Assembly (NCBI RefSeq): GCF_013297935.1
Contig: NZ_JAAFIX010000013.1
Span: forward strand, 1-64,000
Length of the DNA stretch: 64,000 bases
From: Rhodoferax sp.
GTDB lineage: Bacteria > Pseudomonadota > Gammaproteobacteria > Burkholderiales > Burkholderiaceae_C
Direction of reading: 5' to 3'
Of this stretch, positions 31,047 to 40,796 are shown one piece after another (the first letter of the stretch is position 1; each line of letters starts with the position of its first letter). The notes beneath the pieces are model-generated. The model saw only the letters and a program-made list of their open reading frames with translations, was not told the origin of the DNA and ran no database searches. The position numbers and the translations under genes are program-made.

Positions 31047-31061
31047 GTCACAATGCGCCCC

Positions 31062-31802
31062 ATGGCCCTGAAACCGCGCATCCTCCTTGTTGAAGACGAA
31101 TCCGGCATTGCCGACACGCTGCAGTACGTGCTGTCCACCGACGGCTTCGCGCCCGTGTGGTGCAGCACCGCCGAAGAAGCCATCCGCCAGTTCCAGACGG
31201 AGCCACCCGCGCTGGCCGTGCTGGACGTGGGTCTGCCAGACATGAATGGCTTTGAACTGTTCCGCCGCCTGCAGGCCCTGCCCGGTGGCAACCAGGTGCC
31301 GATGCTGTTCTTGACCGCGCGCAGCGACGAGATCGACCGCGTGGTGGGCCTGGAGCTGGGCGCCGACGACTACATTGCCAAACCCTTTTCCCCGCGCGAG
31401 CTGGTGGCGCGCGTGCGCACCATTCTGCGCCGCAGTGCGCGGCCCGTGGTGCCCGCCGCAGCGCCTGCGCCGGTAGCAACGCCGGCCAGCGCAGCCCCGG
31501 TGTTTGCGCTGGACGAAGAGCGCCACCAGATCCGCTTCTACGGCCGCGCGCTGGAACTGTCGCGCTACGAGTACGGCGTGCTGCGCCTGCTGGTGCAAAA
31601 GCCCGGCCGCGTGTTCACCCGCGACGAGCTGCTGCTGCAGGTCTGGGGTGGCGACAACGACAGCTTTGACCGCACGGTGGACGCCCACATCAAAACCCTG
31701 CGCGCCAAGCTCAAGACCGTGGCCCCCACGCTGGAACCCATTCGCACCCTGCGCGGCACGGGCTACGCGCTGAACGAAGAACTGCCGGCCACTCCAGCAT
31801 GA
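31062..31802 (+). CDS. creB: Two-component response regulator, CreB-like (OmpR family)
   Basis: KPRILLVEDESGIADTLQYVL; C-terminal winged helix GDNDSFDRTVDAHIKTLRAKL. Confidence 0.88.
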   Translation: MALKPRILLVEDESGIADTLQYVLSTDGFAPVWCSTAEEAIRQFQTEPPALAVLDVGLPDMNGFELFRRLQALPGGNQVPMLFLTARSDEIDRVVGLELGADDYIAKPFSPRELVARVRTILRRSARPVVPAAAPAPVATPASAAPVFALDEERHQIRFYGRALELSRYEYGVLRLLVQKPGRVFTRDELLLQVWGGDNDSFDRTVDAHIKTLRAKLKTVAPTLEPIRTLRGTGYALNEELPATPA

Positions 31803-31898: not shown

Positions 31899-33365
31899 AT
31901 GTCTAAACGCAGCCGCATCTTCATCGCGCTGCTGCTCATCTATGCGGTGGGCATGGCCGCGGTGCTGTACCGCGTGGTCTCCGACCTGGACCCGCGCTAC
32001 CGCGAGTCGGCCGAAGAGTCGCTGGTAGAAACCTCGCAAATTCTCGCCGCGTTAGTGGAGCAAGACGTGCGCGATGGCGCCATCGACACCGCCCGGCTGG
32101 ACGCGCTTTTCAAATCGGCCTACGCCCGCGAATTCGATGTGCAAATCTTCAGCGTCACCAAAATCCGGGTGGAGCTGCGCGCCTATGTGACCGACCGCCA
32201 CGGCACCGTGGTGTTCGACTCTACCGGCCTCACCACGGGGCAAGACTTCTCGCAGTGGCGCGACGTGCGTCTGGCGCTCAAGGGCGAATACGGCGCCCGC
32301 ACCACGCTGGACCTGCCCGGCGACCCCAACTCCGCCGTCATGTACGTGGCAGCGCCCGTGCACTGGGTCAACACGGCGCAGGGCGCGGGCAGCGGCGAGA
32401 TCGTGGGCACGCTCACCGTGGGCAAGCCGGTGCAGAGCTTCGGCCAGTTTGTGGTGGCCGCACGCAGCCGCACGCTGTATGCGGGCGTGCTCTCGGTGCT
32501 GGCCGTGCTGGTGCTGGGCGTCACCGTGTCGGTCTGGCTGGTGCGGCCCTTTGGCCTCATCACCGACTACGCGCGTTATGTGAAAGCCCAGCCCGGCTTC
32601 TACCCCGGCCGCCTGCTGCGCCGCGCCTGGGACTTGCTGCGCGCCGCCTTTGATGAAATGCGCGACGCGCTGGCCGGGCGCAACTACGTGGCCGACTATG
32701 TGCAAACCCTCACGCACGAGGTGAAGAGCCCCCTGTCCGCCATCCGCGGCGCGGCCGAGCTGCTGCAAGAGCCCATGGACGAAGCGCAGCGCCAGCGCTT
32801 CCTCACCAACATCCAGCGCGAGACCCAGCGCATCCAGGAGATGGTGGACCGCATGATGGAGCTCACCGCACTGGAAACCCGCCGCGTGCTCGACACCGTG
32901 GAGCCCGTGGCCCTGCTGCCCCTGCTGGAGGAGCTGGCCCATGCCTCCCAGGGCGTGGCCGCGCAGCGCGGCATCCACATCAGCGTGCAGGCACAGAGCG
33001 ATGCCACGGTCGAGGCCGACCCCTTTTTGCTGCGCCGCGCCGTGAGCAACCTGCTGGACAACGCACAGGACTTCTCCCCCGAAGGCGGCCAGATCGAACT
33101 CGGCCTGAGCGTGCAAGGCCGCTGGGCCCAGATGAGCGTGCGCGACCAAGGCCCCGGCATCCCCGGCTATGCGCAGGACAAGGTGTTTGAGAAGTTCTAT
33201 TCACTGGCGCGCCCGCACTCCAAGAAGAAGAGCACGGGGCTGGGGTTGAGTTTTGTGAAGGAGATTGCTTCGCTGCATCGGGGGCGGGTGGAGCTGGGGA
33301 ATCGGGAAGAGAAAGAAGGCTCGGGGGCTTGCGCAGTGTTGTGGTTGCCGCGTACCCCGGTCTGA
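31899..33365 (+). CDS. creC: Sensor histidine kinase, CreC-like
   Basis: YVQTLTHEVKSPLSAIRGAAELL (H-box), DQGPGIPGYAQDKVFEKFYS, STGLGLSFVKEIA. Confidence 0.9.
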   Translation: MSKRSRIFIALLLIYAVGMAAVLYRVVSDLDPRYRESAEESLVETSQILAALVEQDVRDGAIDTARLDALFKSAYAREFDVQIFSVTKIRVELRAYVTDRHGTVVFDSTGLTTGQDFSQWRDVRLALKGEYGARTTLDLPGDPNSAVMYVAAPVHWVNTAQGAGSGEIVGTLTVGKPVQSFGQFVVAARSRTLYAGVLSVLAVLVLGVTVSVWLVRPFGLITDYARYVKAQPGFYPGRLLRRAWDLLRAAFDEMRDALAGRNYVADYVQTLTHEVKSPLSAIRGAAELLQEPMDEAQRQRFLTNIQRETQRIQEMVDRMMELTALETRRVLDTVEPVALLPLLEELAHASQGVAAQRGIHISVQAQSDATVEADPFLLRRAVSNLLDNAQDFSPEGGQIELGLSVQGRWAQMSVRDQGPGIPGYAQDKVFEKFYSLARPHSKKKSTGLGLSFVKEIASLHRGRVELGNREEKEGSGACAVLWLPRTPV

Positions 33366-33455: not shown

Positions 33456-34631
33456 ATGATCACCCGCAACATCACGCCCATACTCCAGCGGCTGGCAAGC
33501 CAGTATCCGGTGATTACCTTGACCGGCCCCCGGCAAAGTGGAAAAACCACCTTGGCAAAAGCCCTGTTTCCCGACAAGCCCTACGTCAGCCTGGAAGACC
33601 CTGACATACGGCGTTTTGCCATGGATGATCCGCGTGGCTTCCTGGCGAACTACCCGCAAGGCGCCATTCTGGACGAGGTACAACGCGCACCCGATCTGCC
33701 CTCCTATCTCCAGGGCATGGTGGATGCCGATGCCCGACCGGGCAGATTCATCCTGACGGGCAGCCAGCAATTCGAGCTCATGACACAGGTCACCCAGTCT
33801 CTGGCCGGACGCACAGCGGTGTTGCGCCTTTTGCCATTCACTCTGGCCGAGACGCAACGCCTGCGGGGGAAAGGCCCTCATCCTGACCTGCCGCAGACCC
33901 TGCTCAACGGGTTTTACCCACGCATCCATGATCGGCGGCTCGACCCCAGCCAGGCACTCGCCGACTATTTCGCAACTTACGTTGAGCGCGACCTGCGCCA
34001 ACTCGCTGCGGTGCACGATTTGCAGCGCTTCGAACGCTTTGTGCGGCTGTGCGCTGGGCGAACCGGCCAACTGCTCAACCTGGACAGTCTGGGAAACGAC
34101 GCTGGTGTGTCGCATGCCACTGCCAGGGCCTGGATCGACCTGCTGCAAACCAGCTATATCGTGCACCTACTGCCACCCTGGTTTACCAACTCAGGCAAGC
34201 GCCTCATCAAGTCGCCCAAGCTGTATTTTTATGATGTGGGCCTGGCCTGCTGGCTGCTGGGCCTGCGCACACCGGAGCAAGTCTCACGCGACCCGCTGTG
34301 GGGCAGCTTGTTTGAAAACTTCGTCATCATGGAAGCGCTCAAAGACCGGTTGAATGCAGGCGAAAGCCCTGAGATGTATTTCTACCGTGACTCCGATGGC
34401 AATGAGGTGGATTTGTTGCTGCCTACAGGTGGCAAACTGCACGCCATCGAAATCAAGGCCGGCGCCACGGTCAACCCGGACTACTTTAAGGGCCTGAAGA
34501 CCTTTGCCGCCCACAACCCCCAAGCGGTGGCCGGTGGAGGTGTGGTTTATGGTGGTACGCAAAGCCAAAGCCGCAGCGACTGGCATGTGCACTCCTGGCA
34601 GGATTTGCAGAATGACTCGCCCATCCATTAG
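33456..34631 (+). CDS. AAA ATPase with DUF4143 domain (COG1373-like)
   Basis: TLTGPRQSGKTTLAKALFPDKPYVSLEDPDIRRFA; GAILDEVQRAPDLPSYLQ; RFILTGSQQFELM. Confidence 0.93.
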   Translation: MITRNITPILQRLASQYPVITLTGPRQSGKTTLAKALFPDKPYVSLEDPDIRRFAMDDPRGFLANYPQGAILDEVQRAPDLPSYLQGMVDADARPGRFILTGSQQFELMTQVTQSLAGRTAVLRLLPFTLAETQRLRGKGPHPDLPQTLLNGFYPRIHDRRLDPSQALADYFATYVERDLRQLAAVHDLQRFERFVRLCAGRTGQLLNLDSLGNDAGVSHATARAWIDLLQTSYIVHLLPPWFTNSGKRLIKSPKLYFYDVGLACWLLGLRTPEQVSRDPLWGSLFENFVIMEALKDRLNAGESPEMYFYRDSDGNEVDLLLPTGGKLHAIEIKAGATVNPDYFKGLKTFAAHNPQAVAGGGVVYGGTQSQSRSDWHVHSWQDLQNDSPIH

Positions 34632-34655
34632 TACAGACACTTCCAAGATAGAGCT

Positions 34656-34892
34656 CAGATCAGCGTGCACGACCAGGGCCCCGGCATCCCCGGCTACGCG
34701 CAAGACAAGGTGTTTGAGAAGTTCTATTCATTGGTGCGCCCGCACTCGAAGAAGAAAAGCACGGGGTTAGGCCTAAGCTTTGTGAAAGAGATTGCTTCAA
34801 TGCACCGGGGGAAGGTGGAGCTGGGAAATCGGGCGGAGAAGGAAGGCTCGGGGGCTAGTGCGGTGTTGTGGTTGCCACGAGCCATAAGTTAG
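34656..34892 (+). pseudogene. Duplicated, diverged 3' fragment of creC
   Basis: 34656-34879 aligns without gaps to 33129-33352 (224 bp, about 29 differences by hand count); encodes HDQGPGIPGYAQDKVFEKFYS... Confidence 0.93.
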
Positions 34893-34999
34893 GCAACCCA
34901 ACCGCTCTAGGAAGGCTGTTTGAATAGCTGGAATGGTCGATGCGCGCATCCATCTGAAGTGCGCATTTAGGTTCCCTGTACAAGAAAACATGAAAGGAC

Positions 35000-35701
35000 A
35001 TGCCGATGAACAAACCTAATCTATTGGTATTGATCACCATTCTTTGGAGTCTGCTATCTCCAGCATTAGCCGGGGATACCCTCAAAGTGGGCCGTCCGAG
35101 TGGCCCTGAGGGTAAGGTCAGCTACACCTTGACCCAATATGCAATCGAGAACAGTGCAGAAGGGAAAACATTGGTTTTCGGTAAGGAGTCCATGGAAATC
35201 ACACTCCCGCGTGCCGCAAGCCACCTCACAGTCGAACAGGTAGATTGCTGGGGAGATGTCGCGCAAGATGAGGTAGCGACTGACAACTGCTCAGGCTTTG
35301 TGAAGACCAAAGGGAACCTTCGCATCAGAGCTAAAGTGCGCTATGGCTGGTTTGATGGTTTTCAGTCCTACGACAACAGGCTCCCAATTCTTGAACTATT
35401 CATCCACAAGGACAGCGAAAAAAACTTGCCGCGCAACACCAATTGGACGCCGGGGGGCATCCACGAGTTCACGGTAACCAACGAAACCCAAGTGTTGAAA
35501 CAACTGTTTGCCCCTCAACAATTGAAGCTGGTCAGAAGCAAGAAAAAACTATTCATTGAAGTGGATTCAGACCTGCTCCTTAGCGACATCAATTTTGGGG
35601 ATGAGTGTGGCATTCGATACTTCGCCAAGGTGATCACTGCGAAACCATGGGTGGATGCCCAAGTGGTCGCAAAATCCAAGGGCTGGGACGGACATTGCTA
35701 G
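35000..35701 (+). CDS. Hypothetical secreted protein, no family recognised
   Basis: 233 aa ORF with signal peptide MNKPNLLVLITILWSLLSPALAG. Confidence 0.7.
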   Translation: MPMNKPNLLVLITILWSLLSPALAGDTLKVGRPSGPEGKVSYTLTQYAIENSAEGKTLVFGKESMEITLPRAASHLTVEQVDCWGDVAQDEVATDNCSGFVKTKGNLRIRAKVRYGWFDGFQSYDNRLPILELFIHKDSEKNLPRNTNWTPGGIHEFTVTNETQVLKQLFAPQQLKLVRSKKKLFIEVDSDLLLSDINFGDECGIRYFAKVITAKPWVDAQVVAKSKGWDGHC

Positions 35702-35873: not shown

Positions 35874-35900
35874 TTCACCCCGTTTTCACACAAACTTCAC
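35874..35900 (+). promoter_or_regulatory. Three tandem TTCAC direct repeats at 11-bp pitch (CreB cre-tag-like)
   Basis: TTCAC-N6-TTCAC-N6-TTCAC at 35874, 35885 and 35896; ~94 bp upstream of probable start at 35994. Confidence 0.85.
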
Positions 35901-35993
35901 ATAGCCCCCTAGCCACTTCAAAGTAGCTTCTCCCTCCGGCGGGATGCTCTCTTCACCGTGCAATGTCGCACGATGAACCGCAAGAGATGCACC

Positions 35994-38078
35994 ATGGCTA
36001 TCGCCGTTTTGTCAGAACCCGCACAGCCCACCCGCCTGTCCCGCTGGCTGTGGCTGGCTACCACCACCCTGTCCACCGTGTGTTTTGTGGCGCTGGTCAG
36101 CCACCCTGTGCATGCGCAAGACGCTGACAACCCACGCCTCAAAACCGAGAGCCCCTACTTCTTTGTCAAAAGCGACAACCCTGGCGTGGACCAGTTGCCG
36201 CTCAAATCCACGCAAGTCAACGTAAAGGTCAGCGGCGTGATTGCCGACGTGACCGTGGTGCAAACCTACAAGAACGAAGGCCAGCGCGCCATTGAGGCCA
36301 AGTACGTGTTCCCCGGCTCCACCCGCGCCGCCGTGCACGGCATGAACGTGCGCCTGGCGGACCGCCTGATCACCGCCAAGATCCGCGAGAAGCAGCAGGC
36401 CAAGAACGAGTACGACGCCGCGAAGGCCGAGGGCAAAACCGCCGCCCTGCTGGAGCAGCACCTGCCCAATGTGTTCCAGATGAATGTGGCCAACATCATG
36501 CCCGGCGACGACGTGAAGGTGGAGCTGCGCTACACAGAGCTGCTGCTGCCCACCGATGGCAAGTACCAGTTCGTCTTCCCCACCGTGGTGGGCCCGCGCT
36601 ACAACAGCCCGCAAAGTTCTCAAGCCAACGCCACCTGGGTGGCCCAGCCTTATCTGCCCCAGGGCCAGCAAACGCCCACCAGCGCTGCAGCGCCTGCGTT
36701 TGACATCCACGTTACCTTGAACACGCCCATTGGCGTGAAGGAAGTGCGCTCCAACTCGCACACCATCAACAGCTACACCGAGCAAAGCGGCGCCACCGTA
36801 GTGGGCCTGAACCCCACCGCCGAGCCCACCAACAACCGCGACTTCATCTTGGACTACCGCCTGGCCGGCGACAAGATTGAAAGCGGCGTGATGCTCTACA
36901 AGGGCAAGGACGAAAACTTCTTCCTCGCCATGGTGGAGCCACCCAAGGCCCCCGCGGCCACCGCCATCACCCCGCGCGAATACATCTTTGTGGTGGACAT
37001 CTCGGGCTCGATGCACGGCTTTCCGCTGGACACGGCCAAAGGCGTGCTGCGCGAACTGATTGGCGGCCTGCGCCCCAGTGACACCTTCAACGTATTGCTG
37101 TTCTCGGGCAGCAACAACTTTCTGAGCCCGCAATCAGTGCCGGCCACGAAGGCCAACATCGACCAGGCCATCCGCACCATCGACAAACAGGGCGGCGGTG
37201 GCAGCACCGAGCTGATCCCCGCGCTCAAGCGCGTGTATGCCCAACCCAAAACCGCCGATGTGTCACGCACCGTGGTGGTGGTCACCGACGGCTATGTGAC
37301 CGTGGAGCGCGAAGCCTTTGAGCTGGTGCGCAACAACCTGTCGAGTGCCAACGTGTTTTCGTTTGGCATCGGCTCCAGCGTGAACCGCCACCTTATGGAA
37401 GGCCTGGCCCGTGCGGGCATGGGCGAACCCTTCATCATCACAAAACCCGCCGAGGCCGCCGAACAAGCCGCCCGCTTTCGCAAAATGATCGACTCCCCCG
37501 TGCTCACCAATGTGAAGGTTCGTTTTGAAGGCCTGGACGTGTACGACGTGGAGCCCCGCCAGCTGCCCGACCTGCTGGCGCAGCGCCCCCTCATCGTGTT
37601 TGGCAAATGGCGTGGTGAAGCCAAGGGCACGCTGGTCGTGGATGGCAACTCTGCCAACGGCCCCCTGCATTTCAGCCAACCCATCAGCGCGGGCAATGGC
37701 ACCGACACGGCGGCCCTGCGCCACCTGTGGGCCCGCCACCGCATCGCCGCACTCAGCGACCAGGAAGCCCTGGAAGGTGGCAGCGACGCTCGCCAGGCCA
37801 TCACCGACCTGGGCCTGAAGTACAGCCTGCTCACGCAATACACCAGCTTCCTGGCCGTGGACCAGGTGGTGCGCAACAAGGCACCGGCCGACAGCACCAG
37901 CGTGAACCAGCCCTCGCCCCTGCCGCAGGGTGTGGAGAACAGTGCCTTGGGTGCTGAAGTGCCCAGCACGCCTGAGCCTGCTACCTGGGGCGCCATGTTG
38001 GTGACGCTGTCGGTGCTGGCCATGCTGGCGCACCGCCGCCGCCGCGCCGCCCTGCGCGCCCACCACTACACGAGCTGA
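35994..38078 (+). CDS. VIT/vWA domain protein with PEP-CTERM-like sorting signal
   Basis: VIT-like SGVIADVTVVQTYKNEGQRAIEAKYVFPG; vWA MIDAS FVVDISGSMHG; C-terminus TPEPATWGAMLVTLSVLAMLAHRRRR. Confidence 0.92.
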   Translation: MAIAVLSEPAQPTRLSRWLWLATTTLSTVCFVALVSHPVHAQDADNPRLKTESPYFFVKSDNPGVDQLPLKSTQVNVKVSGVIADVTVVQTYKNEGQRAIEAKYVFPGSTRAAVHGMNVRLADRLITAKIREKQQAKNEYDAAKAEGKTAALLEQHLPNVFQMNVANIMPGDDVKVELRYTELLLPTDGKYQFVFPTVVGPRYNSPQSSQANATWVAQPYLPQGQQTPTSAAAPAFDIHVTLNTPIGVKEVRSNSHTINSYTEQSGATVVGLNPTAEPTNNRDFILDYRLAGDKIESGVMLYKGKDENFFLAMVEPPKAPAATAITPREYIFVVDISGSMHGFPLDTAKGVLRELIGGLRPSDTFNVLLFSGSNNFLSPQSVPATKANIDQAIRTIDKQGGGGSTELIPALKRVYAQPKTADVSRTVVVVTDGYVTVEREAFELVRNNLSSANVFSFGIGSSVNRHLMEGLARAGMGEPFIITKPAEAAEQAARFRKMIDSPVLTNVKVRFEGLDVYDVEPRQLPDLLAQRPLIVFGKWRGEAKGTLVVDGNSANGPLHFSQPISAGNGTDTAALRHLWARHRIAALSDQEALEGGSDARQAITDLGLKYSLLTQYTSFLAVDQVVRNKAPADSTSVNQPSPLPQGVENSALGAEVPSTPEPATWGAMLVTLSVLAMLAHRRRRAALRAHHYTS

Positions 38079-38080
38079 AC

Positions 38081-38926
38081 ATGAGCCGCCTTTTGCAGAT
38101 GCCCCGCTTCGTGCGCTTTGGCATCGCCATCGACACCACCCCCGAGTGGCGCTGGCTGGCCCTGCTGGCCTTGGCGCTGTGGCCCACCTGGTGGTGGATG
38201 GGCCAGCGCATGGCCGATGGCTCGGACGACCCGCTGGGACTGCTGGCCCTGGCGGCCCTGGGCGGGCTGCTGTGGCAACACCGCCTGCACTTGCGCGCGG
38301 CGCCGCGCCTGGGCTTTCAGGCTGCCGCACTGGCGGGTGCCGTGCTCACCACGGCCTTGCACCAGCAGCTGCCGGACTTGGTGGTGGCGCTCATCGGCCT
38401 GCTGTCTATCGCGGCTGGGCTCATCGCCTTTCTGCCGGCACGCGTCGCCACGGCACCGGTGCTGGGCCTGTCAGTGTTGTCACTGCCACTGCTCGCCTCG
38501 CTGCAGTTTTATGCGGGTTTTCCGCTGCGCGTGGTGACGGCGGAAGCCAGCCGCTGGCTGCTGTCCCTAGTCCACACGGTAGAGCGCACGGGCAGCAGCT
38601 TGGTCGTCAACGGACAACTCGTCATCGTGGACGCACCCTGCTCGGGCGTGCAGATGGCATGGTTGGGTTATTTCACGGCCTGTGTGGTGGCGTTGGCTGC
38701 CAGGCAAAGCAACCCAAGCTTTCTGCTGCGCCTGCCCCTGGTGGGCGTGCTGGTGCTGCTGGGCAATGTGCTGCGCAACACGGTGCTGGTGGCGACCCAA
38801 GCGGGGGGCGCGCCGCTGCCCGGCTGGGGCCATGACGCCGTGGGCCTGCTGGTGCTGGCAGCGGTGTGTGGCGGCATTGCCTGGGCTATGGGCCGCACGG
38901 GCACTTTAGGGCGGACGGCATCATGA
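38081..38926 (+). CDS. Exosortase family protein
   Basis: Multi-TM; DAPCSGVQMAWLGYF (Cys), GNVLRNTVLV (Arg), GWGHDAVGLLVL (His). Confidence 0.88.
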   Translation: MSRLLQMPRFVRFGIAIDTTPEWRWLALLALALWPTWWWMGQRMADGSDDPLGLLALAALGGLLWQHRLHLRAAPRLGFQAAALAGAVLTTALHQQLPDLVVALIGLLSIAAGLIAFLPARVATAPVLGLSVLSLPLLASLQFYAGFPLRVVTAEASRWLLSLVHTVERTGSSLVVNGQLVIVDAPCSGVQMAWLGYFTACVVALAARQSNPSFLLRLPLVGVLVLLGNVLRNTVLVATQAGGAPLPGWGHDAVGLLVLAAVCGGIAWAMGRTGTLGRTAS

Positions 38927-39474
38927 GCTTTCTGGCCAATCGGTTTTTGAACCGCGTGTTGCACAAGACACTGTGGACACTCGTGCTGCCTCTGTGCGCG
39001 CTGTGGGGCATGGCCCAAGCACTGACGGGGCACGTTGCCATGCGCGACCCCGACACACCGCATGTGGAGTTGCCCACCGAATGGCAAGGCGCGCCGCTAC
39101 GGCCGCTGGCGCTGAGCGAGGTGGAGCTGCGCTTTGCCCGCCACTTCCCCGGCACGCTGGCGCGCCTGACCGATGGTCGGCAGGTGCTGGTGCTGCGCAC
39201 CGTGACCCAGCCCACGCGCATGCTGCACCCCGCCACCGATTGCTACCGCGGCCTGGGCTACCGCATCCGCAACGAGCAGCTGGAAGAGCACGCCGACACC
39301 ACCCGCTGGCGCTGCTTCATTGCAGAGCGGACTGGCCGCGCGGTGCGCGTGTGTGAACGCATTGAAGACGCGCAAGGGCAGGGCTTTACCGATACCTCGG
39401 CCTGGTACTGGGCCTCGGTAGCCGGCCAGTCCACCGGCCCGTGGAAGGCCATCACCGTGGCCACGCCGCTGTAA
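38923..39474 (+). CDS. Exosortase-associated small protein, EpsI-like (inferred)
   Basis: ATGA overlap with exosortase; signal/TM N-terminus; MLHPATDCYRGLGYRI resembles EpsI H-P-C-G-G pattern. Confidence 0.65.
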   Translation: MSFLANRFLNRVLHKTLWTLVLPLCALWGMAQALTGHVAMRDPDTPHVELPTEWQGAPLRPLALSEVELRFARHFPGTLARLTDGRQVLVLRTVTQPTRMLHPATDCYRGLGYRIRNEQLEEHADTTRWRCFIAERTGRAVRVCERIEDAQGQGFTDTSAWYWASVAGQSTGPWKAITVATPL

Positions 39475-39500
39475 GTGTGTTGTTTGGAAGGAATGATGCT

Positions 39501-40796
39501 GTGCGCAAATGGGTATGGGCTGCGGCCCGTATGCTTGTCTTTACTGCGGTGCTGGCCATGCTGGGGCTGAGCGCCTTGCTGTTTACGGCGCGGGCCATCG
39601 TGCGCCCGGCGCCGGGCGACTGGGCCACCACGCTGCGGGTCGGCCCGCTGAGCCTGGACGTCGGTGTCGCGGCCCTCGTCCAGTGGGGCAGCACGCCTTG
39701 GATTGCCAAGCAACTGCATGGCCACACCCTGCCCACCCGCCTCGGCAATGTGCACTTGGCGTGGGACGAAACTACCCAGCAACTCAGCCTGCACTGCCAA
39801 CCCTGTACGCTGCGCAGCAGCAGCTGGGGCGGTGAGCCGATCCACCTGCACGGCGCGCGCATGACCGTGCGCCGCAACGCCACCGAGCTGCGCGGCACGC
39901 TGCAGAGCGGCACGGTGGCCGCCACCTGGCATGGCACGCTGCGCTCCTCTGGCATCACACTGCACATCGATGTGCCCAGCACCCCGGTGGCCGACGGCTA
40001 CGCCCTGTTCGCCAACGCTATCCCCGAGGTCGCCAGCGCGCAGATCGGCGGCACGTTTTCCCTTAAGGCCACGCTGGAACTGCCCGGCAAGGCGCTGACC
40101 GTGCAGCCGCGTATCAGCGGCATGGCCGTGCAGGGCCTGGGCACCGAGGCCTGGGCGCAAGCGCAAAGCCAGTGCAACCAAGGGCTGCCCGCGGCCATGG
40201 CACGCACCTCCCTGCGGGCCGACAGCCTGCTGGCGCGCGCCGTGCTGGCGGCGGAAGACCAGCGCTTTTATGAACACCCCGGCTACGACCTCGTGGAAAT
40301 GGGCAAGGCCCTGCACAGCAACCAGGCCGAAGATGCCATGCTACGCGGTGCCAGCACCCTGTCGCAGCAAGTGGCCAAGCTGCTGGTCACAGGCGGCGCG
40401 CGTTCACCGGTGCGCAAGCTGCGCGAGCTGCTCTACGCGGTGGAGATGGAGCAAACCCTGGGCAAGGCGCGCATCCTGCGCCTCTACCTGGACCACGCAC
40501 CCTGGGGTGCCACCGTGTGCGGCGCCCAGGCCGCGGCCCACACCTACTTTGGCAAACGCGCAGACCAGCTCACCACCGCCCAAGCCATCTGGCTGGCCGC
40601 CATGCTGCACAACCCGGCCTTGGAGGCCCAGCGCTGGAAGGCGCGCGGCAGCATCAACCTGGAACGTGCCCAGTGGGTGGCTGCGGGCCTGCGGCCTTTG
40701 CCCAAGCGGGAGCGGGCCCAGTTGCGGGCCGACCTGGCAGCCATGGGCCCGGCAGACCCGACCGGCGCACGCACCCAAGCACTATCAAAACAATAG
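39501..40796 (+). CDS. Transglycosylase domain protein (GT51) with N-terminal extension
   Basis: AVLAAEDQRFYEHPGYD, RGASTLSQQVAKLLV, RKLRELLYAVEMEQTLGKARILRLYLD; GTG start at 39501. Confidence 0.9.
   Translation: MRKWVWAAARMLVFTAVLAMLGLSALLFTARAIVRPAPGDWATTLRVGPLSLDVGVAALVQWGSTPWIAKQLHGHTLPTRLGNVHLAWDETTQQLSLHCQPCTLRSSSWGGEPIHLHGARMTVRRNATELRGTLQSGTVAATWHGTLRSSGITLHIDVPSTPVADGYALFANAIPEVASAQIGGTFSLKATLELPGKALTVQPRISGMAVQGLGTEAWAQAQSQCNQGLPAAMARTSLRADSLLARAVLAAEDQRFYEHPGYDLVEMGKALHSNQAEDAMLRGASTLSQQVAKLLVTGGARSPVRKLRELLYAVEMEQTLGKARILRLYLDHAPWGATVCGAQAAAHTYFGKRADQLTTAQAIWLAAMLHNPALEAQRWKARGSINLERAQWVAAGLRPLPKRERAQLRADLAAMGPADPTGARTQALSKQ

Follow-up and report, generated by a model that had tools for sequence, protein, structure and literature searches.

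A tripled TTCAC tag in a larger putative CreB operator upstream of a VIT/vWA-exosortase Q operon in Rhodoferax

CreBC is known elsewhere as a cell-wall-stress regulator, and its physiological role is still debated. In the 64-kb stretch of Rhodoferax sp. DNA analysed here (the window), three TTCAC units stand in tandem upstream of an operon for a VIT/vWA protein, an exosortase and a GT51 peptidoglycan polymerase, which raises the question of whether CreB controls this operon directly. The original prediction held that it does, and that reading is supported at the level of sequence by promoter conservation, the rarity of the tag in the genome, the CreB recognition helix and the co-occurrence of the exosortase with CreC. 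The prediction had missed a second TTC block, a fixed -10 element, the absence of creD and the identity of the exosortase as exosortase Q (XrtQ).

Architecture and conservation of the TTC array

The distal block (35874..35900, forward strand) comprises TTCAC units at 35874, 35885 and 35896 with a period of exactly 11 bp and the spacers CCCGTT and ACAAAC. Its end at 35900 lies 94 bp before the ATG at 35994, so the triple, its period and its distance from the start are as predicted. TTCAC-N6-TTCAC is the published CreB/BlrA tag (cre/blr-tag), needed for BlrA induction in Aeromonas (PMC3660660). The array is the only such site in the window even at one mismatch, and it is also the single near-triple. 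The one-mismatch pair count is not unusual, because 2.7 matches are expected in the shuffled window; the exact triple is unusual, with base composition predicting 0.06 exact pairs and approximately 4e-5 triples per 64 kb. The creBC pair, which the original prediction placed next to the triple, is not directly adjacent to the tag. For the 3.61-Mb genome, 3.5 exact pairs and 0.002 triples are predicted. Seven exact pairs are present, two from the triple and five others at about the chance level, and the motif is not abundant genome-wide. Four of the five others lie within ORFs; the fifth falls in a 33-bp gap immediately ahead of a start codon. The genome-wide search for exact tags found no other promoter-like site, and a wider CreB regulon built on exact tags was rejected on these positions.

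Searching genome contigs for XrtQ gave 59 related loci, which share ancestry and whose counts are not independent events. An exact tag precedes the VIT/vWA gene in 56 of them (at least three units in 18), and L025 and L027 carry TTCAC-N6-TTCAT, one base off the exact tag. L063 is without the exact tag, and its VIT/vWA match is only partial. In 1.08 Mb there are 74 exact pairs, every one of them on the operon strand upstream of VIT/vWA, against 0.63 predicted by composition on both strands. The 42 more distant loci share 24% identity with the window, which is chance level, over the stretch 25-70 bp upstream of the last unit, so the tag is conserved in orthologous promoters within flanks that have diverged. 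In genome G080 the tag is present only in degraded form. Four tandem TTCAC units stand before the VIT/vWA gene of L129 (1501-1538, genome G016).

By its sequence, the TTCAC tag is part of a larger predicted operator. Downstream lies a proximal block (35917..35930, forward strand) with TTC at 35917 and 35928, again 11 bp apart, and such a pair occurs in 55 of 59 promoters, the window's included, against a mean of 0.7 and a maximum of 3 in shuffles. Other TTC spacings are near background, except for 22 (double of 11; 23/59) and, weakly, 24 and 7. The distance between the distal and proximal blocks varies across promoters. The start of the -10-like hexamer GATGCT (35943..35948, forward strand) falls exactly 15 bp after the last TTC, and in 54 of 55 promoters the hexamer at this distance carries A as its second base and T as its sixth. 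Those two positions are the most conserved of -10 elements. A -35 consensus was looked for in these promoters and none was found. Among further XrtQ promoters, some of which may come from the same species as loci among the 59, the +15 rule holds for L129, L154 and L155 but fails for L148 and L149.

An inverted repeat, CGTGC-N6-GCACG (35957..35972, forward strand), lies at the predicted transcript start, which is expected near 35955-35958. Its arms form at least five pairs in 37 of 53 promoters, compared with 10.5% in shuffles, and some relatives show paired changes (CATGC/GCATG in L028 and L053). The repeat folds as a 5-bp stem, and the stability of the whole region does not exceed that of shuffles (z -0.99). 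It may be a 5' mRNA hairpin or a second control site. No plasmid relatives of the promoter were found.

The operon and the creBC pair

The operon is on the forward strand, and its genes are separated by a few bases or overlap. The first gene (35994..38078) encodes a VIT/vWA protein (Pfam VIT, 121 bits; VWA) that ends in a conserved VPSTPEP sorting tail, a membrane span and a basic end (PF07589 PEP-CTERM, 22.9 bits, cut-off 20.7). It is followed by xrtQ (38081..38926; NF012182, 384 bits, cut-off 270), whose catalytic residues Cys187, Arg232 and His251 are invariant in 60 sequences. The third gene (38866..39474, true start probably near 38926) encodes an EpsI-like protein that resembles the C-terminal portion of the exosortase T model (NF033770 positions 315-448) and is a conserved member of the operon in related loci. 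The last encodes a GT51 peptidoglycan transglycosylase with a large N-terminal extension (39441..40796; PF00912, 144.5 bits) and belongs to the operon in most related loci. The locus therefore has what marks an exosortase Q system, namely an XrtQ above the curated cut-off with its Cys/Arg/His residues and an operon target with a PEP-CTERM-like tail. The genome has a second exosortase, XrtB, and the VIT/vWA protein is the weakest of its ten PEP-CTERM matches over cut-off. This fits a pairing of XrtQ with the VIT/vWA protein; XrtB may serve the other PEP-CTERM proteins of the genome.

A close parallel in layout is the proteobacterial dedicated sortase system (TIGR03785 kinase, TIGR03787 regulator, TIGR03788 VIT/vWA). 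In both, two-component genes accompany a VIT/vWA protein that is anchored in the membrane and has a sorting enzyme of its own, and the window's VIT/vWA protein resembles TIGR03788 along its length. However, the window has an exosortase instead of a sortase and CreBC instead of that system's dedicated pair. Membership in the sortase system was rejected, since the window's three counterparts score below the TIGR cut-offs (435 vs 552, 114 vs 612 and 128 vs 336 bits) and the sorting enzyme is an exosortase.

Both members of the two-component pair are on the forward strand, approximately 2.5 kb upstream of the tag. The response regulator gene creB (31053..31802; NF008296, 305.6 bits, cut-off 273) encodes a protein 50% identical to E. 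coli CreB, with which it has the recognition-helix region DRTVDxHIKTLRAKL in common. The sensor histidine kinase gene creC (31899..33365; NF008312, 572 bits, cut-off 356) encodes a protein 38% identical to E. coli CreC. Between the end of creC at 33365 and the tag lie an AAA_14/DUF4143 ATPase gene (33456-34631) and a 233-residue ORF without family matches (35000-35701). Neither was found by tblastn in the 59 related loci, in which creC often directly precedes the tag, and the two (33456-35701) are probably a recent insertion.

Across 151 genomes of the family, CreC is over cut-off in 25 of the 26 genomes with XrtQ and in 36 of the 125 others (Fisher p 7e-11, ignoring relatedness); the 26 include contig-end fragments and leave out a weak match in G034. 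The sole XrtQ genome without CreC, G105, is 76% complete. By hand count from the tables, creD is found in 49 of the 151 genomes, creD or XrtQ in 60 of the 61 CreC genomes, and XrtQ with CreC but without creD in 13. The window's own genome is without creD.

A model of CreB control and its rivals

CreB very probably switches this surface system on, because the same word precedes these genes in almost all relatives found. Phosphorylated CreB would bind the TTC array and activate the VIT/vWA-XrtQ-EpsI-like-GT51 operon. The strong TTCAC units would probably load CreB head-to-tail, as PhoB-type regulators load on 11-bp direct repeats, and the weaker proximal TTC units would position the last CreB next to RNA polymerase, 15 bp upstream of a -10 unaccompanied by a -35. 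The sensor of envelope or peptidoglycan disturbance would be CreC. In other bacteria, Pseudomonas CreBC responds to PBP4 loss (PMC2654508), and genes of the E. coli CreBC regulon respond to colicin M, a peptidoglycan-precursor hydrolase (PMC3599342). The predicted output is an XrtQ-processed surface VIT/vWA protein together with a peptidoglycan polymerase, a plausible combination for CreBC to control.

The known CreB/BlrA promoters (E. coli creD, cbrA and cbrBC; Aeromonas beta-lactamase genes) have the same word TTCAC-N6-TTCAC, and the recognition-helix region of the window's CreB is near-identical to that of E. coli CreB. NANNNT also stands 15 bp after a TTC in E. coli creD, cbrB and cbrA, with an ambiguous register in cbrA. 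The creD promoters of the family fit the +15 rule only in part. The window's promoter thus combines an upstream tag and a -10 at TTC+15 with an E. coli-like CreB recognition region in the same genome. It differs from the known promoters in having three distal units instead of two and a separate proximal block of weak units, and its genome differs from known CreB regulons in lacking creD.

The alternative that keeps most ground is that CreB binds but represses the operon, or is mainly one of several inputs, which we consider unlikely. Control can run in different directions in different species, because in Stenotrophomonas creD rises on creBC loss (PMC4689548). A Crp-like regulator gene downstream of the operon and the inverted repeat near the start, as a possible further control point, would suit additional inputs. 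Against repression, the strong and weak units all lie upstream of the -10, the last TTC at a distance of 15 bp, and no -35 consensus is present; this is the usual layout of an activated promoter, and the E. coli targets have the same spacing. We infer from this layout that CreB acts as an activator.

Somewhat less likely again is that the array is an operator for a different regulator of the OmpR/PhoB family, with creBC nearby by chance or involved only through cross-talk. The use of 11-bp direct repeats is general among PhoB-type regulators, and creC is not near the operon in two genomes: in G006 it lies on another contig, with the tag still present, and in G018 it is away from the operon. 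What speaks for CreB instead is that the repeated word is the published CreB/BlrA tag itself (PMC3660660), that CreC is almost always present in XrtQ genomes, and that the recognition-helix region is common to the window and E. coli. The persistence of the tag in G006, where creC is elsewhere, also counts for CreB. In G126, a genome of the same genus, the parts are missing together: there is neither a CreC over cut-off nor XrtQ, a VIT/vWA gene or an exact tag. A chance arrangement, to which the five other exact pairs at about their expected number might point, is ruled out by the same position of the tag in 56/59 loci despite diverged surroundings and by the 4e-5 triples expected per window. 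CreB as activator therefore remains the preferred reading.

CreBC without creD, and tags in other genomes

CreBC in the window's genome may serve this operon almost alone, because creD is absent and no other promoter-like exact tag is present; this near-dedication could fail if weaker tags work, since the genome-wide search was for exact tags. The broader proposal is that Burkholderiaceae without creD use CreBC, as a regulator of envelope or peptidoglycan stress, almost exclusively for a surface system that consists of a VIT/vWA protein processed by an exosortase and a peptidoglycan polymerase of its own. Such a system would be the exosortase equivalent of the dedicated sortase system, and CreBC would act on it through a two-block TTC array and a fixed -10. 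We regard the chances for and against this proposal as evenly balanced. In the open-licence literature, no description of the VIT/vWA-XrtQ-EpsI-GT51 operon as a CreB target was found, nor anything on XrtQ or its regulation or on a link between CreB and exosortases. CreBC would gain a conserved target outside its known regulons, and a little-studied exosortase system would gain a testable regulator together with likely inducers. The extended operator, with strong distal units, weak proximal units and a -10 at +15, offers a concrete criterion for recognising CreB promoters, and in genomes without creD the signal sensed by CreC can be studied in a simple setting.

Tags were also seen elsewhere in relatives. 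Two additional triple TTCAC arrays occur in genome G127, in L133 (~1501) and L150 (minus strand, ~1480), one of them before a small secreted-looking protein; these are possible additional CreB targets in that genome. In G123 an exact tag (L151, minus strand from ~1291) precedes a geranylgeranyl-reductase-family gene; E. coli CbrA, which is among the known CreB targets, belongs to this superfamily. The gene is treated as no more than a lead, since its product is only 25% identical to E. coli CbrA and scores better against a general reductase family. In G036 a PBP1A-like gene (mrcA) has an exact tag (L139 1501-1516) approximately 50 bp ahead of it; if this tag is functional, another peptidoglycan synthase would be under CreB.
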